Source of the DNA: Hymenolepis diminuta
Lineage: Eukaryota; Platyhelminthes; Cestoda; Cyclophyllidea; Hymenolepididae
Direction of reading: 5' to 3'
DNA length: 64,000 nucleotides
Assembly (NCBI GenBank): GCA_900708905.1
Contig: CAADRB010000083.1
Location: forward strand, 124,001-188,000
Part shown: piece after piece, positions 33,986-63,132 of the stretch
Position numbering within the stretch: position 1 is the first letter of the stretch
Layout of the letters: every line of letters begins with the position of its first letter
Translations under genes and position numbers: made by a program
Notes under the pieces: generated by a model
The model's input: only the letters and a program-made list of their open reading frames with translations
Databases searched by the model: none
Told to the model about the DNA's origin: nothing

Positions 33986-34108
33986 GGCCAAATTATTATT
34001 ATTATTAAGAAAATGACTTTAAATTGATAGCAAAAAAAACCCACAAAATACTGGCAGATAAATTTGGCAGAAGTAAAAAAAACAGATGAAAATTAAAACT
34101 AGTATTAC

Positions 34109-34971
34109 CTTTTCGGCCATTTTACGACGCTTATCTAAATCCAAACAAGAGGCTTTTGATCGCACTTCCATGAGTTTTGGAAAGAGTTCACTGAAGGCTT
34201 TATCGTCAAATTCCTCATCGATGGACCCCTCCACTTCCTTGTTATTTGCATCTGAGAGTTTGACCTCAGCGACTCTGACTGGGACATCAGGCTCTTGATG
34301 AGTAATTGTCTTCTGTGGCTCGGTTCTGGAGTCTGTAAGATAACACTTTACTTAACAGATTTCAGTAGGGGGTCTCAATCCTTATGCATTTGGCCTACCC
34401 TTTATGGTCAAATTTGACCATTCATGAGCAGTCATTGCGGACAAGATCCTGTTAACGCCATATTCCTCATCTTAAAGACGCCGATAATAAAGAAAGATAG
34501 CTCACCAACCTTCTTCAATTTCATCTGGATTTGGTGAAAGCTGGATAACTTCGAAGTGGTTGGAGGTAGCTATCTTGAAAATATAAGTGGCGATTGCACT
34601 GGCTGGAAGGGTTTCACAGACTAACAATCTGATCGGAATATTCTCATCTTTATCAACTTCCAGCCATTCAGATGCTAGCTTTAAACTCTCTAACTGAAAA
34701 ATGATAATAAATTGCCATAAATTACCTTATTTGGATCAAAGCAAACTATTATGCCTTCAGCATCATCAATTGACGACTTGGATTCAGACTCACTGATTTT
34801 CTTCAATTGAATGGAAGCGGTGTAGTATTTACAATCAATATACAAGCAATCTTGAGCTTTGCTTGTTTTTGTAAGACCTAGAGAAAATAACGACAAGAAA
34901 TTCGTACCTTCATACACAGTTTCAGCAACGTCTTTAGCAGAAATATCAATAAGCAAAGCAAATGAAGACAT
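34109..34971 (-). CDS. AAGAB: Alpha- and gamma-adaptin-binding protein p34 homologue (last exon not found)
   Basis: Four minus-strand exons: 34971-34908 (start ATG), 34877-34726, 34693-34510 and 34332-34109, 208 codons. Introns are 30 nt (34907-34878), 32 nt (34725-34694) and 177 nt (34509-34333). The N-terminus MSSFALLIDIS, then DCKYYTASIQL and IIVCFDPNK, match the Rab-like fold of human p34 (DNKYYSADINL, FVVYFDS). Exon 3 has NHFEVIQLSPNPDE, matching GFELVELSPEE. Exon 4 holds the conserved tail ELFPKLMEVRSKAS…KRRKMAEK, matching the p34 segment RLFSKLKEMKDKA…QRKVHAEK. In the family this protein binds adaptor subunits and acts as an assembly chaperone for AP-1 and AP-2 in clathrin trafficking. 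The expected closing block (AFWMAIGGD-like) should be in a further exon below 34109. Reading on into the putative intron adds 30 mostly hydrophobic residues before a stop at 34019, which is less likely. The linker is shorter than in human p34 (315 aa). Confidence 0.85.
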
Positions 34972-37250: not shown

Positions 37251-37739
37251 CCCTTTAGCCTCCTCCCACCCTTGAGGTACGTAAAGGCAGCACAAACTTC
37301 CCTCTGTGATTTGGTCCGAGTATAACTGTCCTGTTCAAGCCAAATGCCTTACTGTTCGGGAGGCCGTAGGAATTAGATGAGGGAACCGAAGCTTGCAAGT
37401 TACGGTAGAATAAAATATTGCAAGAATGGTAAGCACAAAAATAAACTGAAACGGAGGACGCAGGATACTTAATCTAAATATTACGAACAACAAGAAAATG
37501 GGATATACGGGAATTAAAATGAAGGAGTTATTATAAAATTATGTAGAGTAGGTAATCAAGGGTGAGTGGAAAAAATATGAATTTGAAGAGAAGCATAATG
37601 GATAACCATTTTCAAGTCGTGTATCGATATGAGAAACGTACATGCCCACCATTACGAGTAACTGGCTCTGATTTTTCCGTTTTTTGATTCGAGGGTCTGG
37701 ATGAAACGCTGATGTAGCGTTTTCAGTCAAAAGCTTATC

Positions 37740-37916
37740 AAGATAGGCAGGTTTTACGCAATTCATAGAAACAACAGATTCCTTGTCATTTTGAAGGAAA
37801 GTGAAAGTCTTTTCTCCTCTTTGAAGGACTGCAAAAGGGCCATTATAAATCGGCTGGAGAGGTTTACAGACAGCATCATGGTGAAGAAAAATGAGGGGAA
37901 CAAGATTTTTATTCAA
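37740..37916 (-). pseudogene. Integrase C-terminal domain remnant
   Basis: DAVCKPLQPIYNGPFAVLQR and VSMNCVKPAYLDK match the gypsy integrase C-terminal 'GPF/Y' module (PLQP.YDGPF.V, V..D.LKPA). The open frame runs on to 37539 but carries no recognised domain after this module. Confidence 0.8.
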
Positions 37917-37949
37917 TGGGAATAAAAATGGGGTAGGAGACAGGGCGGG

Positions 37950-38821: not shown

Positions 38822-39330
38822 TTAGAGCTTGGAGTCAGTCTTCTGAGCTTCAGAGATGGAACTAAAACCAACGACTTTTGTTACTGCTTTGACATCGGCT
38901 CGAGGAAGACAATCAGTAACGATATTGTTCGTGCCTTTAACAGATCCGATGTCGTTGGTGAACTGTAGAATGAAATCGAGGAGCTGGGTTTCAAGTGGAG
39001 AATAATGGTCAGAACTGGCTTGGCGAGCATATGTCAATAGCTTGTGATTGATGAGGAACGTGAATTTCCGACCTTCTAGGAGATATCGGAAATGTGTCAC
39101 CGCCTTGTAGATCGCCAAAAGCTCTCTCTTGAAAGTCCTGTAACGTGTTTAAGTGGGCGTTAATTTGGTGGAGAAAAAGGGCAAGGGGCTCTATCACATC
39201 TCCTTTCCTTTGTTCTAGTACTGCACCAGCAGCAACCTGTGAAGCGTCTGTGGATAGTGTTAGGGTTACTTCTGGTTCTTGATATGCAAGCGCTGAGCAA
39301 TCTGTTAACAGGATTTTAACTTTTTCGATG
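38822..39330 (-). pseudogene. RNase H remnant
   Basis: TLTLSTDASQVAAGAVLEQ (near 39270-39210) matches the RNase H start 'TDAS..A.GAVL.Q'. The later part has shifted frame (39118-38822: FTFLINHKLLTYA, ETQLLDFILQFTNDI, GTNNIVTDCLPRA), matching FT..TDHKPLTFA and G..N.VADALSR. A frameshift lies between 39118 and 39009. Confidence 0.85.
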
Positions 39331-39399
39331 GTTGTTACAGCTGCAGTGGGGAAGGAGAAATTGGTCTTCGAGGACTTTGATAGTTCTGTGAGCAGAAAA

Positions 39400-40115
39400 A
39401 TCACGGGTGCAGAATTGGGAAGAAAACGATGGTAAATATTTATCATGTCTAAGAACCGATAGTATTGGTTAAGGGATTTCGGTAGTGGAAACCATCGAAT
39501 CTCTTTTACTTTTTCAGCAGTTGGTCGGAAACCTTTGTAAAATAGAGTATGACCAAGAAAAAATAGGTTATTTTGCTCGATTTTACGTTTGGAGAGATTT
39601 TTGATGAGTCCATGAAAATTCAGTGGTTCAAAAACAATGTTCTTATGTTCTTTTTTATTTTCGCTAGCCATCAGGATGTCATCGACATTGACAAACATAA
39701 AAGCTAGACTATGCAACACTCCATCAGTAAAATCTTGGAAGGTTTGGGCTGCGTTATGTAAACCAAATGGCATTCGAAGGAATTCAAACAGACCAAATAA
39801 GTTGACAATGACGGTTTTGAGAATATCTGCTTTGACCATAGGAATCTGGTCATAAACTCAGACACGGTTGACTTTGGAGAAGATCTTCTTATTCCGAAGA
39901 TTAGATAAGAAAACTTATGCATTGGGTATGGGGTAATTGTCTGGGACCGCGATCGAACTGAGTTCACGGTTGTCGCCACAAGGACGCCAATCATCAGATT
40001 TCTTGGGGACCATATGGAGCAATACCAAGATCAAGCATGTGTTCGAATTCATCCTTAATGATCTAATGGTGGGTGGGTGAAAGACGACGGACTCGGGCTT
40101 TGATAGAGTTTCCAT
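39400..40115 (-). pseudogene. Reverse transcriptase remnant
   Basis: The start of RT is in one frame (40115-39915: [29 protein letters not shown]). The palm is in another (39839 downward: FEFLRMPFGLHNAAQTFQ, FVNVDDILMAS, FFLGHTLFYKGFRPTAEKV). The catalytic box reads VNVDDIL in place of the usual VYLDDIL/YVDDIL. The switch between frames near 39900 shows at least one indel. Confidence 0.9.
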
Positions 40116-40207: not shown

Positions 40208-40489
40208 TTATAGAACAAGAGGTGGGACAGAGGCATTCGACACACTTGGAATAGAGGTTTTTAGGGAGTTAAGTAACTTCTTCCTGCAGAGATCAAGAAG
40301 GAGACCGAGCTGACATGGGAAATCAGCACCTATTATTGGTTTGGAGGCGTCAGCAATGATGAAAATCCAGCGGAATGTTCTGCGTAGTCCAACTCTCAGA
40401 GTGGCAGGCTTCCGACCATATGTCAAGATGGGAGAATCGTTTGTGACTGCTAGTATAGGTGAGTGACCTGAAGAAGTTCGGTCAAGCAA
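40208..40489 (-). pseudogene. Aspartic protease (retropepsin) remnant
   Basis: LTYGRKPATLRVGLRR and ADASKPIIGADFPCQLGLLL match the second half of gypsy proteases (…LADV..PLIGADFL...GLLVD). The catalytic D-T/S-G segment expected just upstream is not recognisable, so the enzyme is dead or truncated. Confidence 0.75.
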
Positions 40490-46461: not shown

Positions 46462-49400
46462 ATGGTCTTTTATTTTCAATTAGATCCTGATGTTAGTATC
46501 ATAACAGGTCATCTAACAGAAACATTCGGCAAATCACAAGATGGAATTTTTAAGGATATTCAGCTTGGGGACTGTCTTTCTAGTATTGCGAAAGGAAGTG
46601 CCGCCTCTAACACCGCTGTAATCTCCTTTAAACCCGTGGAAGGGGATGTTGAGACGATTGAAGAGATCTCATTTGCAGAACTACATTCGAGAGTTATGAA
46701 ATTGGCGTCCGTATTGAAAGAAAGTTTATCTCTAGGTCTTAAACAAAGAAAGGCAGATGTAAACACAGTGGATGCACAAAGCAAAACAAATGTGGCCACT
46801 TATCTTAATGCTGGAATCAATCGGGTATACATTCAGGTACGCAAATGCTATCATAAAATTTTTATTAATATTTATCATTTTCTCTTGTTAAATAATCTTT
46901 CATGCCCTATTTATCCTTATTTAAAGATAAACTTCCACTCGTAGAGAAAATAAAGTCTTCAAAGTGGCGTTAATCTCAAATAAAGTTGCTTTCATAATCT
47001 AAATGCTATATTACCTGTCTCTTTCATAGGATAAATATATTTAAAAGATGCCCTAAAATCATTTACGGTTGAAAAAGAAATATACAGCATTAGGTGTTTT
47101 GGTTTATTTGCTACTTTATTAAAAATTTGCTGCCATTCTATTTGATACCTCGCTGTTTTTATTATATTCATCCTGACGTTATTAAATTTATAGAAACCGT
47201 AAATGTCGTACAACAAAAAATTTATGATAGTGGTAGGAAAATAAATTATTATGTCTTTATTGATAATCATAATCTAAGTTTATCTCTAAATCTTATAGTG
47301 GTGTTGACTGATTAGTCATAGTAGTGGCTGATAGCAAACACCGGGTTTAGACATCTTCTTAATTAGGATAAATAAGACCTTTGCATAAGAATTTAAATTT
47401 AATTTAATTAGTGTAATTTAATTCAGTAACTTCTTCATTTGATATGCAGCAGTAGTACTTATATGGATATCATCTAACAGACTGATCATTTCTGGTTCAC
47501 TTGCGATGAATTGCGGGATTATAAATAATTCTCTTTTATTTCAAAGGCGCTTCGCCCCTAGTCTTAAATGAGACCGTGCAATAAGGGGATGCCTTAGGTT
47601 CAGATAATGACAAGATGAGACAAAGGAAACTCTTTCTCTTTCCAATACAGCTTTCACAAGACAGGAATGAGGCAGAATCGGTGACAGAGTATCTTTAGAG
47701 TAGATCATTGGTAAGACAACAACTTTGTAGCCAATAGACTCCAACCGTATTAAAGTAGAGGAGCGGAATGCACACCGTAGGTGGCAGGAGGAAATCAATA
47801 AACCACACACAATTATGCGAGGCAGGCAATAAGCTGAATAAACTTGATAAGCGTATTAAGATAATAGACAAGACATGTCTAGAGTAAGATCACTTTAGTT
47901 CTTTTTTATTCATTTACAGTCAAACTCCACTTATTCAATCGATAATCAAGCAGCTATATGAGCAGCATAAATAGAAGGTTAATCAGACGAGGATTTATAA
48001 TAAAGGATTTGTGACTTTGAATATTCAAAAAGTCAAGTTAGGAAAGGATCACCCGGATCATTATTTTTATTTAAGAAATTAACATAGGATGTAGTAATCA
48101 AGTAGCACCCCCACCATCAAATCTTCTCCTGTTGTTGGATCTATACACTTTCATCCAGTTTAGTAAGCACAATTTTCACGGTTCCCTGCGCCCCTCCCCA
48201 ATCAAAGAATTCACAAAATATTCTACCTTTATTCTACCCTGCTTATGGTGAAGCATGCAAGTAACTTGTTAAGAGATATTAAGACAGTGTGCTATTGTTA
48301 CTATTCTAGTTGCTTAATCAGTCATAATATTAAGTTAGTTGGCCAACAAGATCTGAATATTACGACCGTTACTTTATCCTGATACTCAAGAATCAAATCA
48401 TGAAGAGCACGCTTTGGAACATGCTGAATATTTCAAAGTGAAATATAACCCACTGGACGTTCTGATTTCATTATATACACCTATTTGATCCTCCCCCTCC
48501 CACCCCATTACATCTTTTGCTGGTCTGTTTACCTATTTCGCTTGTTCAGATGTTCTGTAATTTAAAATTTCAAACATTTTCCACATTGCAATAAGTATTA
48601 ATAATTCAAATCTGGAATCAGAGCATCAGATGCTTTATTGCCAAAAAATTCATCTTGGGTTACTATATAAAACATTAAAAAATTCGAAGAGCACTTAAAT
48701 TAAATACGTCTTTAATGTTTTAGCTTGCCTGTATGTATTTGCGTCTGACTTATATTCCCATGGACAGCAATCTTCCAAAAGATCGTATAAATCTTATTTT
48801 CAACTCCTTCGAACCCATTGCTTTTATAACCGATGATACTAACGTCAAGATTGAAGATATCGAAACTTTAACATTCACCGTTGATGAGCTATTAAAAAAA
48901 GCAAATGCAGCTGACATACCAGCAGAAGAACCCCTATTCAAGGGAATGGAAAATCCCCTCATACTGCTCCTTTTCACTTCTGGGAGCACATCTCCGATCC
49001 CAAAGGGCGTTCCCCTTCGAAACAGCCAATTGGCAAATCGTCTTTCTTGGCAGTGGAGTACAGAATCACCACTAGCAGGAATAACAGGACCTAGCTTGAT
49101 TAAAACATCCTGCCTTTTTGTTGACAGCTTCACTGAAATGTTTGGACCGCTGCTAGGTGGTAGACCCATCATTGTTTCAGGGACTTCAGAAATTACTAGT
49201 GAACGCCTAGTTACAGATATTGAGATTCTTAAACGCCTTATCAGTCAATATCAAATAACTCAGATAACAAGTGTTCCAACTCAACTCGAGTTGTGGATGA
49301 ACCAGATGGCTGGTGATGGAACGGCTTTCAAGTCATTGAGAGTGATTGTATCTAGCGGACAAATGTTGCCTTATACTTTGGCGTTGAAGATCTTTGCGGT

Positions 49401-52400
49401 GTTTGGAAGCGGAAATTTGAGATTGCTCAATCTTTACGGCAGTACTGAAGTTGCTGGTGATGTCACGGCCATCAGTTTTGATAGTAAGGAGGAAGTCTCC
49501 AAGGCAGCGATACAACTGTCTACTGGAAGTCTTGTCTTGCCAGTAGGTAAACCCATTAGCAATACCGAAATTTACGTTGTTGAAGGTGGAACGGGCAGCT
49601 CTAGTAAAGTTGCGCCAATGGGTTTGGAAGGTGAGGTTTTAACCTCTGGGGCAGGCATTTTGATCGAAGAACCAATTCTAACCTTATCAGACAAAAAGTA
49701 AGTAAATGCAATATTCTTTCCGCAAATTAGTTTATTACTTTAACTAGTAAAAACATTTGATTCCATATTAGATGAAGAATTTACCACATCAGAGCAAACA
49801 AATACATAAATGCCAGGTCAATTAGCGAGGAATTCTTGATGAAAATTAATTTCCGCGGCAGAGAACATTAGTCTATTGGCAATCTTATGATTTATATGAT
49901 TAGATTTAATTTCGTAATTAGAGAAAAAGTAATTCATTTTGACCTTAAAATGGAAAAGTGAATATTTTATAATCTAGGCGAATAATCAGCTCATTAAGCT
50001 TAAGAAATTGTAGATCGCTAATTAATGAATAAATAGGACATTAATAAAAAAATGCATCACTGGAAAAACTATTACCCTTATGATAAATATCTCTCCTAAA
50101 TCTTACATTCCCCCATGTTTAGTAGGTCCAAATATCTGTTTTAAATGTTAATACATAATAACATTTTTATGTTTTAGCACTAAATCTGGTTTATTGGGGG
50201 TTAAGATGACAACTAACGGTTGGCAGCTGACAACTAGCAACAGCAACAATAATCACCAATTCGTAGTTGTTTGAGTAAGAGCTAACAACTGCAGAGCAGA
50301 AAACCAAGAGCTGATTAGACCAAAATATATTCAAGGAAGCCACAACGAAGATTGAAGCGAGTAAGAGGGAGTGAATGAGAGGGGGAGAGACCTGAGGGAC
50401 AGAATAGATGAAGGAAGCTTAGGAGTTGATATCTGACATGTGTACATCATGTTTTGAGTGGGAAAACAAAAATTGTTTTATCTAAGTCATTTGGGTAAAG
50501 CCACACGAGAACATGAGGGCTGATGCACTGTTAAGTGAATCGAGACGGTTACTAAAAAGGTGAATCGATAGGCGCATTTAGACATGACAAATAGGGGTTT
50601 TGCGTCATAGGGACATAAGACGTTATTGCGGCTTCGCGGACGAAAAACTGAATTTTTGTCATAGAGAATGCGAATAAAGAATAAATTCTAGAAATACATA
50701 GAGTCACCCGTCAAATTAAGACCAGCTAAAGCGATTTCTGACATCTAATAAATTAGAACTATGTAGTTAGGAAGACGTAGACGAATACAGATCTTTGCTT
50801 TTGAATGCCAACGTCTAGTTTTATTGCCTATCAATCGTCTTGGCAACTAATCTCTAGCTTTAATTCCCTAAAGGTTTAAAAGACAAATGGGAGCCAATTA
50901 CAATTTCAGCACCTGAGAAATAAATTAAATTGGCATAAAATAAATAAATGACTGTATTGTTCTAATGTGTATATTTATATTAGAGATTTCAAAACATATT
51001 TCTTCCTCTGCCCTGGATAACCTTATTGAACACGGTCTTGATAAGACTGCTCAAGTATTGAGAAAATCAACGCTTTTCTTAGATCAACAACGTTGAGAGC
51101 TGACCCATCTTAGCCATCACTCACGATTTGAATTATTTTCCTTACAGCAAGGATTGCCTATTCACTATATCCTTCGGAACGAAATTCATATTGGATGTTT
51201 CATAATATGGAAATTCAGCCTTTCAAAGAGCAGTGAGAGAAAAAATTTTAAGAAGATACTTCTATAATTAGCAGGCTCTATTTTAACTTCCTTACCTATG
51301 TAAATGCCGACTACTTCAGCATCCATTCAGAATGATCTTCTTGCGAACAATTAATAAAGCATTTTAGAAAGTAAGGATCCAATAACGATCCTTCCTAATT
51401 GAGTGGTTCAGATAGCAAACCATTATGGTCAGGACTTTTTGGGGATTTTCACTGGCATTTAGGTAATTGAAGTTCGTAAGGAATCCGATGTATTTATACT
51501 TTCCTAGGAAGCCACAGCCCGGAATTTAAATAATTCTGTGTAGTGGTTGGCAAAAGATCTGGGATCACCTAAATCTTGTTTCATTTTAAAGTTATTCATG
51601 TCTGGATGTAATTATGCAATATCTTTCTCATCATCTCGTAGGCTTTCCTGCGTTAATTAAAGCTATCAGCTTTGGAAATTCCTCCACTTCAGTCGACCTG
51701 ATGATTCTGGAGCTCAAATGAAGTAGGACTTTCCTGATTCCCTAATTCTCGCTTCTATTGTCTAAGCACCCACTCTTAAAATTAGATATACTTCTTGTTT
51801 ATGAACTTTTACTTCCTAAATGTTTTGATATTTCTCGATGATGAAAATTTTTTAAATCTTCTTGCCCTCCCAAGCAAATAAATGTATAATCACCCTTGGG
51901 AAATATGCCTCACATTTAATAACTCCAGTTAAAAATACAGGAATGATTTGAATTCAATATAACAAACAGGAGTATTTTTAATAGCCTTACCTCAACTTAA
52001 ATCTACTACTGCTTTTATCCACCGCCGTGTTTTCCCCACGATCCATCTCTTTTCACTCAAGTAGTTTATCAATTGGTCTTTGATATTTCATTAAGTGGTT
52101 ATAAATAGGTCTTTATTAGGAAGCATCTAATAGCTGAGAAAAGTTTATATGAAAGGGCATAAAGATCAACAAGAGCAGGATAAATGATAGACCAAGAAGG
52201 ACTATTGTGTACAAAAGTGTGAGAAAATGATCATCTCGCTCTAATGCCAACTAACCTCTCCTCAGTGTAGGACTGTATGACTGACTAGATCTGGGATTTA
52301 AGCATCTCTACGTGCTGGCGTATGTGATTCGTTTAAGATAGAGAAGTTGCTACTGTAGTAATTTTAAGTCAGCGAATCATTACTAACTTAAACACAAATT

Positions 52401-55400
52401 TCCCTTCATTCTAATTTCATTCATGTGTGTAGACAGTCACCCATATTCCATATTGCCCTCCTCCACCTGTAATATAAAATCCCTATAAGAATCCCTGTGT
52501 ATTTTTTAATAATACAAAATTACCCCTATAGGTTGTAAAGAAATAGATCGGCTACCTATAATCCTACCCCATATTAAAATATGTTAGCTCTTATCATTTG
52601 CTATTATTTTGAATTTCTGAAGATATATGTATCAGCAGAGGTTAACCACCTATACAAACTAATAATATTGTCAGTATGCATCGGCAGCGCACTGATCATC
52701 GTGCGCTTCTACTGTTCGATCCCCATCGGAGCACAGCTGGTGAGCGGAATGTCCAATCACATGTGCTATATTTGGCTACGAAGGTGTAGAATTAAAGTCT
52801 CTCATCAGGGGGTCCCATGTTGTCACTCTTTACCCAAGATTGGTGTTGGGAGGCTGTTATAATCTGCCCTCCTCTGTAGGATACCGTAACCGACTCTTAG
52901 ATTCCCCAAGACACTGCACTAATTACAGATACGACCTGACAATACCATAATGCAAGAGACCAAAACCACTATATCCAAACAAGACGTTTTCGTTTCGATA
53001 GGTCGGTCTATATTATTCGCCATTTACAACCGCAATATAAATAAATTCGTTCGAATAAAAGGGAATTAAAAGAAGCAAGAATCAAAAGGTGGAAAATAAA
53101 GAACCTTACATGAAAGAATTGTTTTGGGAAAAATATTATTTTCTTATATGTAACAGAAACACTTTTCTAGTTGGGCTTGGAATGACATTGCATTTCTAAA
53201 TTCACTCTGCCTCATGAATATTTCAAAATACTAAGGGCTACTTACAATTCTTCAGTAACAACGAGCTTGATGAGTTGCATTATTTTACTCCTATATTTTG
53301 AGAGTTTGAATCTGTTCTTCTTTACCACTTATAAACTTTGAATTTCGGTTATGTTCTAGTAAAATTATCCACCCAGTCCCTGTTGTTTTTATATCTTAAT
53401 GACTAAATAAAGAGAATTTTAAGGATACAACAAGTGAGCGTGTTTTGTTTCTATCCTACTTTGTTTGATCCTAAATTTTAATTCCCTGCGATTTATTTTG
53501 AAGCCAAAAAGACAAAAATGTGAAATAGCTCCACAAATCGGATATCATTTAAAATTTTTTCTTGCTTGACAAAACTTGCACGCTGAAAATTTAAATGTTA
53601 TAGTAGCGCTAATATATCCATTTTATCCTTTTTTCAAATTATACTTTTAACTTGTTATAGGCTGGCGCCAACATTATCGAGAAATTACTTGATGAAGTCG
53701 CCCTGTTTCCCTCGATTATTTCAAACAGGAGATATTGGTTTTGTATGTTCAAAGAGTGAAAATCTCTATATCACTGGAAGAGTGGATGATGTGGTTAAAG
53801 TGAATGGAGTAAAAATTTCCGTTGGAAACGTTGACCAAATTTTGGCCGGACTTGATAGAAGTAGTGGCAAATTTGCTAGTCTGGGAGCCACAATAACTCT
53901 CGCCCTGGAAAAGGGTGAAACGAGTTCTCAATTGGTTTGCTTTTATCAAACTTCTGGCAACAAAACATTTACGGATAGGGACCTGGCTGCTATTGTGAAA
54001 ACTCATCTCATGTCATTTCTGCATGTTATTTTCGTCGAAGTAAGTTATTATTGCTTATCATTTCTTCCTTATTTACTACTGTAAGTTAATTAGAAGCAAT
54101 GCTGTTTCTTATCAGAAGATCCAAGCACACATTAAATTATTTTATTCTGGCGATGGTGATTTAACTCACTGTCATAAACATTAATTTATCTCATAATTTG
54201 TTTTTCTTATAAAAATATTTAAATGAGGTTTTATTTGAAATTTGAATTTTACTTAAGCATTAGTTAGGTTATTAATAATTATAACTCTCAAGTCCATTTA
54301 GAAAAGTGCTTTTTCCAACACTCATCTTGGGTAGAGGAGTGGCCTCATAAAGCTTTCCGATTAGGAAGCTCGAATTCTGCCGCCCTCTTTAAAAGCCGGA
54401 TTTAACCAGTTTGATTGACCGTTCGTCCCACCTCGAGAACACTGATGGGCACCGGGCACGTAAAACAATACACCTCTGATGCTTATTAATCCTCTTACAG
54501 TTCCTTAAAAGCTTCTAGATTCCATGGTCTACGGTCATTAATCTTACATTTACGGTCTTTCCCAGAGTTTGAGCATGTAATTTTATGATGATTTTCACTA
54601 TCCTTTCAATTAAATCTCTGATTTTCAAACCTCATATACACAACCTGAGAAAACTTCAAGACGAATAAGTATTTATTTGACCATGGGGTATCATTTTGTG
54701 CAAGTTACGACTGTGCAGGGACAAATACAATCCTCATAGGGCTATGTGAGGCCAAGGGTTTACTTTTACTCTGAATTCAGGTGTCTGGACATCGCATTTC
54801 AAATAACCACTTTCCTAACTGAAAGGTATGTAATTTATGAGCGCTTCTAATCCTGTTTATTTTCCCTCTCCTTCTCTTTATTCTTCCTTTATGCATGAAG
54901 CTCCAAATAATACGTACTTCGGTGTGGCAATCTTGAATAGATACGTTGTCCAGATTAATTTGTTTCTGAGTAATAATATCTTCATGCTTCGTTGTCCGCC
55001 CTTAATACAGTCAAATCGAAAATGGGAAAATAATATTCTCCAAGTTCTACAATTTCCTGAGAACCTGTGTACTTATAATTTTGAAAAATCGAATATAACA
55101 AAATCGAGGAGAGAGTGCTCATGAATGTTTGAGGTGACCAGGTCTGAGGTCTATTCTACATTCAAAAAGACAATATTAATATACAAGATAGGGAAGGGAC
55201 AGTTGTCATTGAATTTTTGAAAAAAAATAACCACTGAAATGTTTGCTATTTGATTAGTGGAGGAAGCCAGACAAGCAACAGACACTAGTTTTGAGAAAAG
55301 TCAGCGACTGAAAATCGCTGGTCAATGTAGAGAAGTCAATTGAATAGATTAGCAAAACTGCATAAATATAAGTTAGATAAACTACGCCCTGTTGCATCCC

Positions 55401-57670
55401 ACCAATATGACTACACGAACGCATCATAAACCGATCCTAAAAAGAGCCTGGTAATTAATCAGAAGAGATTTCACGATATTATTAATTGTCTCCTTCTTTC
55501 TCAATTTTAATTAATTCTAAAATAAACTTTAGCCTTCTTTTCCTTCCTCAAATAGGTGCCAACATTTCCTATCTTGAAACATTCTGGAAAAATTGATAAA
55601 GTGAAATTGGGACAAAATTACAAAACTGGGGCCTATGAAAAACGCAGTATAGTCACCAGCGCTACGAAACGGGAAACAAGCGATGAGCGAGAGGTCATTC
55701 GAAGGATATTTGCAAGAAATCTTGCATTATCGGAAATTGCTGTGGAAAATGGTGAGCCTGATGATAACGCGGATTTCTTTCTCATTGGAGGGGATTCGAT
55801 TTTGGTAAGCAATCAATTAGTGAAATGATAAATTTTATTATTTAGGAGTTATCCTGACGCTCTAACTATTCCACCATTTATCAAATGATTTACCCGTCTA
55901 TTTATAAAAGTAGCACGCATTATATTATTCGGACAAGAGGAGGAATCTCTGTTAGTATTAAATTTCAGAAATGTATAAGGAGATTCGATTCATGGAATTT
56001 GGATTTTATTTCGTCATTACCTATCTTACAAAAGCGTGCTACCAAGTTTTTTTATTTATCAAGAGGTCCTTTGAAATGGCCATTTCAGTCAATGCTGTTC
56101 ACGAAGCCTGTTACATCAAAGACTTTCTTGTTGTCTTGGTTAATTTGCCTTAGCCATGACTTTATTTGACCTTTCTTTCTAGTTCTCCTCGTACCTGATA
56201 ACTTGAAAGACGTTTTAGATTAAGTAAATTAAGATAGACGTTACAAATTGACCTACAAACTTAGCCACAGAATTTTCCAGAAGATTCCACTTTCTAAACG
56301 TTATAGCTTTGCTAAAGCGCAATCTCTAGATTAGCCTTCTCACAGTGTTCGGGGTGTTGCTGAATGACTCCCTTACTACCATTGTGAAAAGACTGCAATA
56401 GACTATTGACTTTAAGGACGTTGCCGGTTACGGAATCCGTCACTGTTCCTTATACACTAATCGGTGATTCTAAATCGACTAAAGAAGTTTTCGAAACTCT
56501 CGAATTCAGTTGCCTATTTAATTAGGACCGATAAATATTAATATTCATCAACAACCCTAGATAATGAACAAGGTTACTTTTGAATTCCGCTGTTTCCAAC
56601 ACGTAGCCAATCTATTTTTGTGTATTCATCAACATACGTACATTCATGGCCATCTGCAAACTATACTTAGCTAGAGCCAACATTTTGCCAGTTATTTTGC
56701 ATTTTCCTGCACAAGTTAAAAAGTAGGTGTCGTTCTATTTAAGCAGTTATGTTTTGCACTTTGGGAGAATTATTTTGAATGATTTTTTTCTTATTTTAGG
56801 CGGCAGTTGTTATCTCAGAACTGCGAAAAAAAGGCTACAAGGTAAATATGAACCTTTTTACAGAGAATCAAAAAATCGGAGACCTCTTAGACGCCCTTAC
56901 TAACGTGGCTAATCCCATTGCACAATCTTCCTTAAATGGGAGTAAAGTCCCATTTATTCGAGAATTCCAACCGGGAAAAACTTTTGCTTCTGACTCAGCA
57001 CTCGACGCACAATGGAGAAATCTAATTGCCAATATACTAGCGGATTCGTTTGTGGAATTCGAACCCATGGCGATTGCGATTAATTTGAATAGGGAAACCG
57101 TCTATCAGATCGCTATCGGTAGAATGAAACAATTCGAGGTAATGCCAGGACTTCTTTTTGTCGCCGGTTTCACTTTATCTGATCCGAACGGTCCCCTGAA
57201 TGACCTCTTTCCAGAGGTTTCTGCTGTAACGTTGGGATATCCTTTACTAACTCCAGAATCGCCTGGTGTATCTGATCCTCTGTACCAAAAAATTGAAGAA
57301 GCTTTTGAGATCTGTAATTCCCGAGCCGAGAAATTAGAGGATCCTTCCAAATGCTTTAGCTCAGCAATGCTTGGAGCAAGAAGGTTAAATGCTGGAAATG
57401 ATATAATCCAACTTCTGATACTCATAGAGGAATCTCTTATCAATGGTGCTAAAAGATTGGGCTTTAATGCTATCCGATCCATAAATACATCGGTTGTAAC
57501 TAGGGTAATTGTGTACTTTTTCATTCTATATCACTTCCTAGATTATGTCTGACGAATTGGGCTATGTTCACAATTGCACTGTCAATATCGCGGAGGTATT
57601 CGGAGAAATTGGAGTGAAAACCAATCAAACGGAAATTCTAGTTGATGTGGTGACCAAAAAACTCGACTAA
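46462..57670 (+). CDS. nrps: Ebony-like nonribosomal peptide synthetase (A-T-amine-selecting), multi-exon
   Basis: Six coding exons are readable: 46484-46836, 48724-49697, 53661-54039, 55556-55804, 56800-57504 and 57542-57670. All have GT-AG borders and consistent phases, giving about 929 codons (insect Ebony is near 880). Order: adenylation (A) domain in exons 1-4, carrier (T) domain with GGDS in exon 4 into 5, and an Ebony-type C-terminal amine-selecting domain in exons 5-6. Ebony-like signatures include NRLSWQWST, FVDSFTEMFGPL, YGSTEVAGDVT and PISNTEIYVV. By family knowledge the A domain activates beta-alanine with ATP, loads it on the phosphopantetheinylated T domain, and the C-terminal domain joins it to an amine. 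Schistosome NRPS makes beta-alanyl-tryptamine; insect Ebony makes beta-alanyl-dopamine and -histamine. The amine used here is not known. The start is uncertain: 46462 is an in-frame ATG, but a strong acceptor (ttttcaattag) at 46483 suggests an upstream exon. Motif A2 is missing between exons 1 and 2. An alternative is AASDH, but the Ebony-type core motifs and C-terminus fit better. Confidence 0.88.
46484..46836 (+). CDS. nrps: NRPS exon 1 of those seen: N-terminus of adenylation domain
   Basis: Acceptor tag ends at 46483 and the donor gtacgc starts at 46837. The exon enters with two bases of a codon and ends in phase 0 (…RVYIQ). It carries the usual start of an adenylation domain: NTAVISF followed by EEISFAELHSRVMKLASVL, matching the 'Y.QMNERANRAARLL' region of Ebony. 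The residues before this are not conserved. If the 46462 ATG is used without an intron, the protein starts MVFYFQLDPDVS; otherwise a first exon lies upstream and was not identified. Confidence 0.75.
48724..49697 (+). CDS. nrps: NRPS exon 2: adenylation core (motifs A3-A5)
   Basis: Acceptor ttttag ends at 48723; donor AAAAA/gtaagt is at 49698 (exit phase 2). It opens in phase 0 with a stretch ending TYIPMDSNLPKDRI, matching Ebony's AYLPIDPSFPANRI. The A3 loop is at 48976-49011 (TSGSTSPIPKGV, one residue longer than TSGSTGxPKGV). The A4 region FVDSFTE has its Asp, expected to hold the substrate amino group, at codon 49123-49125. A5 is YGSTEVAGD at 49435-49461. This exon gives the strongest link to Ebony rather than to other acyl-adenylate enzymes. 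Confidence 0.92.
50192..50706 (-). mobile_element. Solo LTR inside NRPS intron 2
   Basis: It matches the gypsy LTR at 36803-37250 from end to end with many substitutions and some extra sequence. On the element strand it begins TGACTCTATG and ends near CCCCCAATA. No gag or pol sequence adjoins it, so it is most simply a solo LTR left by LTR-LTR recombination. It lies in the intron between NRPS exons 2 and 3 (49698-53660), antisense to the gene. Confidence 0.7.
52675..52900 (+). repeat. tRNA-like SINE fragment in NRPS intron 2
   Basis: gcatcggcagcgcactgatc followed by ctgttcgatccccatcgg gives box-A-like and box-B-like words at tRNA spacing, in a GC-rich island inside the intron. A 93-codon open frame (52581-52862) crosses it and is taken as chance. 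Confidence 0.5.
53661..54039 (+). CDS. nrps: NRPS exon 3: adenylation motifs A7-A8
   Basis: Acceptor ttatag ends at 53660; donor gtaagt is at 54040. The first base completes a Lys codon begun in exon 2. Exon 3 holds TGDIGF (from 53725, motif A7, hinge Asp) and GRVDDVVKVNG (53776-53808, motif A8), then the small C-terminal subdomain, ending …HVIFVE in phase 0. The A8 tail, usually RIELGEIE, reads VKISVGNVD, so its acidic positions are not kept. Confidence 0.9.
54281..54480 (+). repeat. SINE-like copy in NRPS intron 3
   Basis: It starts ataactctcaagtccattta, shared with 33070-33100 and 63887-63920. It continues with gaggagtggcctcataaagc and agctcgaattctgccgcc, which read like box A and box B of a tRNA-type promoter. 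GC-rich against its flanks. Confidence 0.55.
55556..55804 (+). CDS. nrps: NRPS exon 4: catalytic A10 lysine and carrier-domain serine
   Basis: Acceptor aaatag ends at 55555; donor gtaagc is at 55805; both phases are 0. It begins VPTFPILKHSGKIDK, matching Ebony VPLLVNGKVDR; the A10 lysine codon is 55589-55591. The carrier domain follows, with DNADFFLIGGDSIL. The phosphopantetheine-attachment serine is codon 55796-55798 (GGDS; Ebony has GGNS). One exon therefore joins the end of the A domain to the T-domain active site. Confidence 0.92.
56800..57504 (+). CDS. nrps: NRPS exon 5: end of carrier domain and amine-selecting domain
   Basis: Acceptor attttag ends at 56799; donor gtaatt is at 57505. 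It opens AAVVISELRKKGYKV, matching 'TVTLLREKGYNI' of Ebony (last helix of the T domain). About 200 residues follow that align only loosely with the GNAT-like C-terminal domain of Ebony that recruits the amine. Visible points are the block with ALDAQWRNLIANILADSF near 56992-57045 and a helical block with EEAFEICNSRAEKLEDPSK. Low conservation here is expected because this domain sets amine choice. Confidence 0.85.
57542..57670 (+). CDS. nrps: NRPS exon 6: C-terminal end
   Basis: After a 37-nt intron (57505-57541) the frame resumes IMSDELGYVHNCTVNIAEVF and ends …VTKKLD with TAA at 57668-57670. The pattern fits the final residues of Ebony (QQLADVYHYKTLLNFQVNEY), so the reading frame is complete at its 3' end. 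It is the only short intron in this gene; the others are 1.0-4.0 kb. Confidence 0.85.
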   Translation: MMSDELGYVHNCTVNIAEVFGEIGVKTNQTEILVDVVTKKLD

Positions 57671-58205: not shown

Positions 58206-58889
58206 NNNNNNNNNNNNNNNNNNNNNNNNNNNNNNNNNNNNNNNNNNNNNNNNNNNNNNNNNNNNNNNNNNNNNNNNNNNNNNNNNNNNNNNNNNNNNNN
58301 NNNNNNNNNNNNNNNNNNNNNNNNNNNNNNNNNNNNNNNNNNNNNNNNNNNNNNNNNNNNNNNNNNNNNNNNNNNNNNNNNNNNNNNNNNNNNNNNNNNN
58401 NNNNNNNNNNNNNNNNNNNNNNNNNNNNNNNNNNNNNNNNNNNNNNNNNNNNNNNNNNNNNNNNNNNNNNNNNNNNNNNNNNNNNNNNNNNNNNNNNNNN
58501 NNNNNNNNNNNNNNNNNNNNNNNNNNNNNNNNNNNNNNNNNNNNNNNNNNNNNNNNNNNNNNNNNNNNNNNNNNNNNNNNNNNNNNNNNNNNNNNNNNNN
58601 NNNNNNNNNNNNNNNNNNNNNNNNNNNNNNNNNNNNNNNNNNNNNNNNNNNNNNNNNNNNNNNNNNNNNNNNNNNNNNNNNNNNNNNNNNNNNNNNNNNN
58701 NNNNNNNNNNNNNNNNNNNNNNNNNNNNNNNNNNNNNNNNNNNNNNNNNNNNNNNNNNNNNNNNNNNNNNNNNNNNNNNNNNNNNNNNNNNNNNNNNNNN
58801 NNNNNNNNNNNNNNNNNNNNNNNNNNNNNNNNNNNNNNNNNNNNNNNNNNNNNNNNNNNNNNNNNNNNNNNNNNNNNNNNNNNNNNNNN
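58206..58889. other. Assembly gap (684 N)
   Basis: Unresolved bases between the NRPS gene and the R1 repeat. Long open frames that cross it are artefacts of the Ns. Confidence 1.
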
Positions 58890-61484: not shown

Positions 61485-63132
61485 ATGATTGTTGATACTG
61501 AAATTGAGATTCGAATGGTTGAAATTTTGAACTCTAAAGAAGTCAATGAAGCTCTCGATAGGTAGCTATATATTGTTCTCCAGCTAGCTTTTGTTCTCAG
61601 TTTTAACGTTGTTCTTGCTCAAATATCTGATCTGCCACCTAATTACTTTACTGAGGTTGCAGCAACCTTTGCTGATATGAGTAGGTTTATTTGTTTTTTA
61701 TTTTGCAATAGTTTCTCAGGGTTCTGTAACTCTCGTTGTCTCTCGAAGAATTGGTAGAAGATTGACTGAATTTGTTGACAGCTTTTCTGACGATAATTTA
61801 GTAATTGAAACTCTTCAGGAAATGCTCTATCGTCTGCAACCCCGTGCCATTGCTTTTGAATATGAGGTATTCCTTAACGGAATTTTTGTTAATAATCTCT
61901 TTAGTTGGCATATTTAAGGGATCGACTTGCTCAGCGGCTAATGAAAGTTGGCAAAGTGAAGGAGGCCGTCGAGATGTTACGTGCTATTCCCGTTGACAGT
62001 CATGCTCGGTAATGTTCTTGACGTGTTTTTTTTTTCATTTATCGATTAGTGGTTATTCAGATGAGTACAAGCTCCAAATCTGTGCTCGCTTAACTGAGTG
62101 TCTAACTATACTAAAGGATTTTGAGTGCATCGAAAACGTTCTTAATCAGGTTTCTAAAATGCTACCTAGCTGTACAGATGAAGACCTAAAGATGAAATTC
62201 AAGGTTTGTTTGTTTCTAAGGTTGATAAATTTAATATTTCTTTCTCCTTTTAGATTGCTCAGGCTTTACTTTTAGATTCAAAGCAAAAGTTTCTAGAAGC
62301 TGGACAGAGATATATAGAGCTGTCCATTCGCTTCCGAGGTGTTTCAACGGAAACTCAGAGGACAGAATTCCTTGAACATGCTCTAATCTCCACCATTTTA
62401 GGTGGAGCAAGTCAACAACGAGCGCGACTTTTAACATTTCTTTACAGAGATGATCGTTGTCGTGCCCTTAAGGCTTACCCTGTCCTCGAGAAAATGTAAG
62501 AATGTGATGTAAGGTGATTGTTTTCACTAGGTATAATCAGAGGTTAATTAGTCGTGAATGTATAGGGAGTCTGCGACCTCTAATTATTCAATACTACGCT
62601 GATTTGTTCGGTGGTGAAAATGGGCAAAAATTGGATGCTGTTTTAGAGCGGGTTGTTGTTGAGCACAATATGATTGCTGCCAGCAAAGTTTACTGCAATA
62701 TTACCCTGAAGAATCTTGCGGAATTATTGGAAATTGAAACAGATCAAGTAAGCTGTGCTTGTTAGATGCGTGTATGTTTATGCTTTAATATATTTTTTTC
62801 CCATGTGTACTCACTTCAGGCTGAATCGATTGCTGCCCAAATGATCGAAGAGGAAAGATTGGATGCTCTTATCGATCAAATTGATGGACTGATTTTCTTT
62901 GAGAGTAGGTGTTTTTAAAATAACCTCTTGTTTCTCCATCCTTGTATACCACAAGTACATCGTTTTTTTCTCTCATTTTACTTTAGGAGATAATGTGAAT
63001 ACAGTGACGTCGAGTATTCGAACCCAGAATTTGTGGACTTCATTAAATCAGATTCTGGAGAATATTGAAGCTGATCATCCCAAATGGATTGCTGAAAGAA
63101 CCGAAAATGGTCGTGTTAGAGAGAACTGTTAG
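61485..63132 (+). CDS. COPS4: COP9 signalosome subunit 4, complete, nine exons
   Basis: Exons: 61485-61561, 61601-61680, 61712-61866, 61905-62008, 62050-62203, 62254-62495, 62531-62747, 62820-62904 and 62987-63132. They total 1260 nt, 419 residues plus stop (human CSN4 is 406). All introns are GT-AG and tiny: 39, 31, 38, 41, 50, 35, 72 and 82 nt. Matches run from end to end: GSVTLVVSRR, LQPRAIAFEYE, LEKMYNQRLI, RVVVEHNMIAASKVYCNIT, LAELLEI and IDQIDGLIFFE all match CSN4. The N-terminal half is helical-repeat; the PCI/winged-helix part covers roughly the last 200 residues. CSN4 is a scaffold subunit of the COP9 signalosome, which removes NEDD8 from cullins and regulates cullin-RING ubiquitin ligases in nucleus and cytoplasm. 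The start ATG gives an N-terminus collinear with human. It lies about 3.8 kb after the NRPS gene on the same strand; no functional link is implied. Confidence 0.95.

Follow-up and report, generated by a model that had tools for sequence, protein, structure and literature searches.

The window, a stretch of 64,000 nucleotides of the Hymenolepis diminuta genome, harbours on its plus strand a gene whose product is supported, by sequence comparison and structure modelling, as a single-module Ebony-type NRPS with an adenylation (A) domain, a carrier domain and a condensing domain of predicted GNAT fold. On balance we favour the view that beta-alanine would be activated by this enzyme and probably coupled to tryptamine, with beta-alanyl-tryptamine as a likely reproductive cue of the tapeworm. 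This reading is based on the position of the tapeworm among the flatworms, in which both described cases employ this product for reproductive signalling, and on the presence of the needed enzyme types.

Related systems have been described in the passages of PMC11214079 used here. In the fly, dopamine and histamine are inactivated through conjugation with beta-alanine by Ebony. In schistosomes, beta-alanyl-tryptamine is the product of the NRPS in neurons of the male and brings the female to maturity. The hermaphroditic planarians make beta-alanyl-tryptamine through nrps and aadc in somatic cells of the gonad; it acts as niche signal in these animals and was the sole conjugate detected of those possible. 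The tapeworm is hermaphroditic, unlike the schistosomes with their separate sexes and their signal from male neurons, and resembles Schmidtea mediterranea, another hermaphroditic flatworm with nrps and aadc (PMC11214079). For the planarian, the same source reports product, expression and phenotype, whereas those of H. diminuta are predicted from its genes. The original prediction regarded the use of such a signal in a hermaphrodite as new; because the hermaphroditic use has been published for planarians, this claim is weakened and the argument fails as written.

Gene model and family membership

The gene consists of six plus-strand exons between 46484 and 57670, which join in frame across introns that are all of the GT-AG type and give a product of 929 amino acids. 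With the first codon completed by base 46483, this product equals residues 3-931 of P0001, an H. diminuta protein record of 931 amino acids that is flagged partial; the 100% match also confirms the flatworm origin of the DNA that had been proposed from its letters. The exon 46484..46836 encodes the N-terminus (..DPDVSIITG..) and the start of the A domain, with the acceptor TTTTCAATTAG before and the donor GTACGC after it. The bulk of the A domain is found on exon 48724..49697 (Pfam AMP-binding, E 2.5e-37 for the whole protein) and its C-terminal part with LFQTGDIGF and GRVDDVVKVNG on exon 53661..54039. The A10 motif SGKIDK and the carrier domain up to GGDSIL follow on 55556..55804 (PP-binding, E 3.4e-9), the end of the carrier domain and the bulk of the GNAT-like amine-condensing domain on 56800..57504, and the terminal exon 57542..57670 ends with the stop codon TAA. 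At E<=1, AMP-binding and PP-binding are the only Pfam domains of the protein, without PQQ-like repeats. A single match in the own genome (assembly of 170.6 Mb, 203 contigs) was obtained for the A-domain exon and likewise for the C-terminal one, and the nrps gene ranked first among the Pfam AMP-binding loci with 114.7 bits, followed by 77.7 bits (16 scored of 30 candidates).

Protein searches, in which the approximately 8,000 candidates with most shared words were scored, returned 19 tapeworm proteins under 15 tapeworm names: H. diminuta, H. microstoma, R. nana, Anoplocephala, Echinococcus, three Taenia, Hydatigera, Mesocestoides, Sparganum, two Spirometra entries, Dibothriocephalus and Schistocephalus. 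The H. microstoma relative is 76% identical over the full length. More than one protein was found in Sparganum (P0012, P0109, P0111), Spirometra sp. Aus1 (P0013, P0110) and Mesocestoides (P0010, P0011); the NRPS locus names of Spirometra run consecutively, and those of Sparganum lie close together. An additional search with an Ebony-specific stretch yielded 16 proteins, namely ten of the known tapeworm ones, one from a monogenean, one from a crab and four others. A schistosome or planarian NRPS was not among the proteins returned by any of these searches, and the monogenean relative was used as stand-in for the schistosome NRPS, which makes the link to an established beta-alanyl-tryptamine synthase an indirect one. 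The schistosome enzyme, Sm-nrps of Schistosoma mansoni, for which PMC11214079 gives the accession A0A3Q0KR05, is also a flatworm NRPS similar to Ebony according to the consulted parts of PMC11214079 and PMC10252128. Among the literature matches listed and in the main texts considered, no tapeworm nrps was met with, although an earlier listing is possible. The study of Suring 2023 included Platyhelminthes, and only schistosomes are named in the passages considered.

The phylogenetic tree was calculated from 46 rows, comprising 13 tapeworm, 7 Ebony-like (including the monogenean, the crab and P0017), 12 AASDH-like and 14 bacterial-type sequences; six of the 19 tapeworm proteins were left out as near-duplicates, fragments or one long fused model. 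Rows and group labels were chosen by the author, the AASDH label being based on PQQ-like domains. All tapeworm rows form one clade (support 100/99) with the monogenean Cichlidogyrus protein P0114 as sister (100/100), and together they fall inside a 20-row Ebony-like group (98/89), with the AASDH-like and bacterial rows across that branch. Both limits of support are reached by 21 of the 43 inner branches, 10 are open, and one fork within the Ebony-like group has 90/50. The tree includes two very long branches in the Ebony-like group and 18 rows with unusual letter make-up, and the AASDH-like rows do not form one clade. The group is anchored by P0017, which carries the source name ebony-like and whose C-terminus matches the Ebony structure PDB 6dym (E 2.5e-24); Drosophila Ebony itself is not among the rows.

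AASDH and ACSF4-U26 are single-module A-T enzymes as is the tapeworm protein, and ACSF4-U26 has been reported to activate beta-alanine in the cited passages of Suring 2023. The AASDH-like rows possess PQQ-like repeats (PF13360/PF13570), which the tapeworm protein does not have, and it is placed outside their part of the tree. It is therefore highly improbable that the gene codes for AASDH, stems from a bacterial contaminant or is a functionless, decaying copy, although the tapeworm proteins P0007 and P0008 are misleadingly labelled 'Linear gramicidin synthase subunit A' in public records: the 98/89 branch separates the AASDH-like and bacterial rows, all six coding exons are free of stops and frame breaks, and the identity to the H. 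microstoma protein extends over the full length. Besides the introns, animal-like neighbours make a contaminant scaffold unlikely. These are exons with a PCI-domain match at 61900-63130 on the plus strand (E 2.7e-13; by eye COP9 signalosome subunit 4) and an exon at 34019-34351 on the minus strand with a sub-threshold match to the alpha/gamma adaptin-binding protein p34 (22.9 bits, cut-off 32). The proposed A-T-C-terminal architecture of an Ebony-like NRPS is borne out by the in-frame exon join, the two Pfam domains and the tree group, which also held against the AASDH and contaminant readings that had been named as tests.

Substrate pocket and condensing domain

The residues of the A domain were compared in 21 rows, in which ten pocket positions were placed via motif anchors. 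The pocket code of the H. diminuta enzyme reads VDTTVSLGDK and is close to that of the other Ebony-like rows. Compared with VDxVISxxDK, which we take to be the A-domain code for beta-alanine (a literature search on these letters gave no match), V235, D236, S301, D331 and K517 agree, V299 is conservative and T278 differs. The Asp at code position 236 (D254 of P0001, 49123..49125, plus strand), which presumably would hold the amino group of beta-alanine, is found in 20/20 rows with this stretch among the 21 examined, and the Asp at position 331 (D366, 49459..49461, plus strand) as well as Lys517 are present in 21/21 rows. Val235 occurs in 18/20 rows, with Ile in two Taenia, and Ser301 in 19/20, while at position 278 Thr in 12/14 tapeworm rows stands against Val in 4/5 other Ebony-like rows, the monogenean excluded. 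The features NRLSWQWST, FVDSFTE and YGSTEVAGDVT, which had been named at the outset, are all present, as are the A10 lysine (K583 of P0001, codon 55589-55591; K in 21/21 rows) and the carrier serine of the GGDS motif (S652, 55796..55798, plus strand), the predicted phosphopantetheine site according to sequence and row comparison. Distinct from the other Ebony-like rows is the A3 ATP-binding loop TSGSTSPIPK (48976..49005, plus strand), which is one residue longer. The longer loop with its Gly to Ser change is found in 14/14 tapeworm rows having the stretch, and the monogenean also has the longer loop, whereas the five other Ebony-like rows (one of them from the crab) show TSGS[TS]G-xPKG.

The tapeworm NRPS does not contain a canonical condensation domain but a predicted GNAT-fold C-terminal domain related to that of Ebony. 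The A-T-condensing architecture is common to Drosophila Ebony and the tapeworm enzyme, and the two were compared in this C-terminal domain (6dym). The Ebony-like C-terminus had first been judged by eye; it is now backed by the profile comparison with hhalign of tapeworm against Ebony-like C-termini (Prob 95.8, E 7.3e-9; controls: best of 30 column shuffles 0.49, reversed 0.19) and by structure modelling. Since bacterial A domains took up all 50 rows shown when the full-length model was compared with PDB, the C-terminal exon was modelled separately. The best match of this model among solved structures is 6dym, with 18% identity over 163 aligned residues, and it also resembles insect dopamine/arylalkylamine N-acyltransferases. 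Glu at 57427..57429 (E864 of P0001, plus strand) is conserved in 18/18 rows with the stretch (3 of 21 gapped) and is a candidate active-site residue. Asn at 57484..57486 (N883, plus strand) is likewise N in 18/18 rows with the stretch and lies in the motif INTS..T[QR], which resembles TNTS..TQ of Drosophila Ebony.

With the Ebony-like rows P0016 and P0017, the C-terminal domain shares only 16-18% identity, and it has no evident counterpart of their NEP-like stretch. Together with the altered A3 loop, this divergence suggests that the amine may differ or that the activity may have changed. That the tapeworm enzyme yields a different beta-alanyl conjugate, serving a separate function, is nevertheless rather improbable in our opinion. 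In comparison to Sparganum, the C-terminal domain of the H. diminuta protein is indeed more diverged (23% identity) than the A core (43%), which would fit a changed amine as would the rebuilt loop and the several copies in Sparganum, Spirometra sp. Aus1 and Mesocestoides, but towards H. microstoma both parts are alike (75% and 76%). Moreover, the beta-alanine pocket is kept at the majority of its positions, as is the E864/N883 pair, and the divergence may just reflect a long flatworm branch.

Amine supply and the proposed signal

The preferred reading, the synthesis of beta-alanyl-tryptamine, needs a source of tryptamine. The decarboxylase family PF00282 gave 12 exon matches in the H. diminuta genome, five on contig C191, six on C169 and one on C63. 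The match on C63 was set aside as tryptamine source, because its WLHVEG stretch is PDXDC1-like. The exon pieces on C191 and C169 best match DOPA/aromatic-amino-acid decarboxylase structures (E 2.9e-82 and 4.1e-77), and their histidine decarboxylase matches rank behind (E 5.3e-75 and 5.5e-74). Both AADC-family genes retain the lysine of the PLP site, in NPHKW (C191) and NPRKW (C169), and differ at a putative Gly/Ser site, which reads WQLSFGRKF in C191 and WQLSFSRKS in C169. In the parts of PMC10252128 considered, a single residue, Gly or Ser, distinguishes the schistosome DOPA from the tyrosine decarboxylase, S. mansoni possesses two genes annotated as DOPA decarboxylase, one Gly-type and one Ser-type, and SmDDC-1 is suggested as possible tryptamine source. 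We infer that the WQ..G/S site corresponds to this residue, in which case the two tapeworm genes would parallel the schistosome pair. An AADC-type decarboxylase is predicted as the tryptamine supply, as two such genes are present in the own genome. The two loci (L010 on C191, L011 on C169) also differ in HVDAAYAG versus HVDADYAG. Regarding the activation of the carrier domain, PF22624 (AASDHPPT_N) gave one match in the genome (E 1.6e-12) that could represent the carrier-activating enzyme; the three stop codons in its read frame may be introns. PF01648 (PPTase) had no match in the genome.

These decarboxylases could also provide dopamine or serotonin. It is conceivable, although unlikely, that the tapeworm enzyme inactivates monoamines such as dopamine, serotonin or histamine in the nervous system instead of making a reproductive signal, as insect Ebony does according to the summary in PMC11214079, and the resemblance of the C-terminal model to insect N-acyltransferases would fit such a role. 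However, both flatworms treated in that paper make beta-alanyl-tryptamine as a signal, and no other conjugate was detected in planarians. Furthermore, the exon-by-exon search with prokaryotic controls gave no match for a Tan-type recycling hydrolase (PF03417), a weak argument because of these controls and because introns are able to hide a gene.

Returning to beta-alanyl-tryptamine as reproductive cue, the A domain would make beta-alanyl-AMP, from which beta-alanine would be loaded onto the phosphopantetheine arm at S652. The C-terminal domain would then let the amine attack the thioester and release the beta-alanyl amine. As amine, tryptamine would come from one of the decarboxylases, probably the one encoded by the glycine-type gene of C191. 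The product might be released by neurons or by support cells of the reproductive system and thereby promote maturation of gonads or vitellaria in serial segments. A wider scenario, which we propose tentatively and with less than even confidence, is that gonads and yolk glands are switched on in one segment after another along the strobila by beta-alanyl-tryptamine of local origin or by a beta-alanyl amine specific to tapeworms. In this case, schistosomes would have redeployed an ancestral self-signal of flatworms at a late stage as their male pheromone.

In this regard, the Discussion of PMC11214079 asks whether the changed signal source in schistosomes is tied to parasitism or to separate sexes, and in the part considered urges a broader sampling of nrps in free-living and parasitic flatworms. 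Being both parasitic and hermaphroditic, the tapeworm would tell these two factors apart: if nrps is expressed in support cells of the gonads, separate sexes would be indicated as the cause, and if it is expressed in neurons, parasitism. As related genes exist in Echinococcus and Taenia, the answer would also be relevant to how worms of medical importance produce their eggs. For H. diminuta, which serves as a laboratory model, the cited passages describe RNAi (PMC12582415) and in situ hybridisation (PMC11886792).

Start of the gene and adjoining sequence

Upstream of 46484, a pyrimidine-rich stretch with terminal AG resembles a splice acceptor and contains an ATG at 46462. Translation could possibly start at this ATG, which is in the same frame; the acceptor-like stretch right before 46484 suggests instead that a short first exon may exist upstream. 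The H. microstoma relative P0002 starts with MHDSAIPPSGSIITG. None of the 146 candidates in the scanned upstream stretch was convincing. The one with the top donor score, at 40428-40458, lies near retroelement fragments and is unlike the H. microstoma start, and it is not claimed. An extra small exon between 46836 and 48724 had been suspected, since residues seemed to be missing before LACMYLRL. A scan of this interval for segments of 18-72 bases bounded by AG and GT gave no suitable candidate, and the alignment revealed that the exons 46484-46836 and 48724-49697 are colinear with the relatives, hence no extra exon is needed.

The retroelement fragments mentioned are Ty3/gypsy-like and situated on the minus strand at 38822-39857 and 37539-37949; reverse transcriptase and RNase H matches fall in the frame 39009-39857 (minus strand), and the adjoining frames were assigned by eye. 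Approximately 540 bases past the nrps stop codon, a run of N extends from 58206 to 58889, which represents an assembly gap or a withheld stretch.
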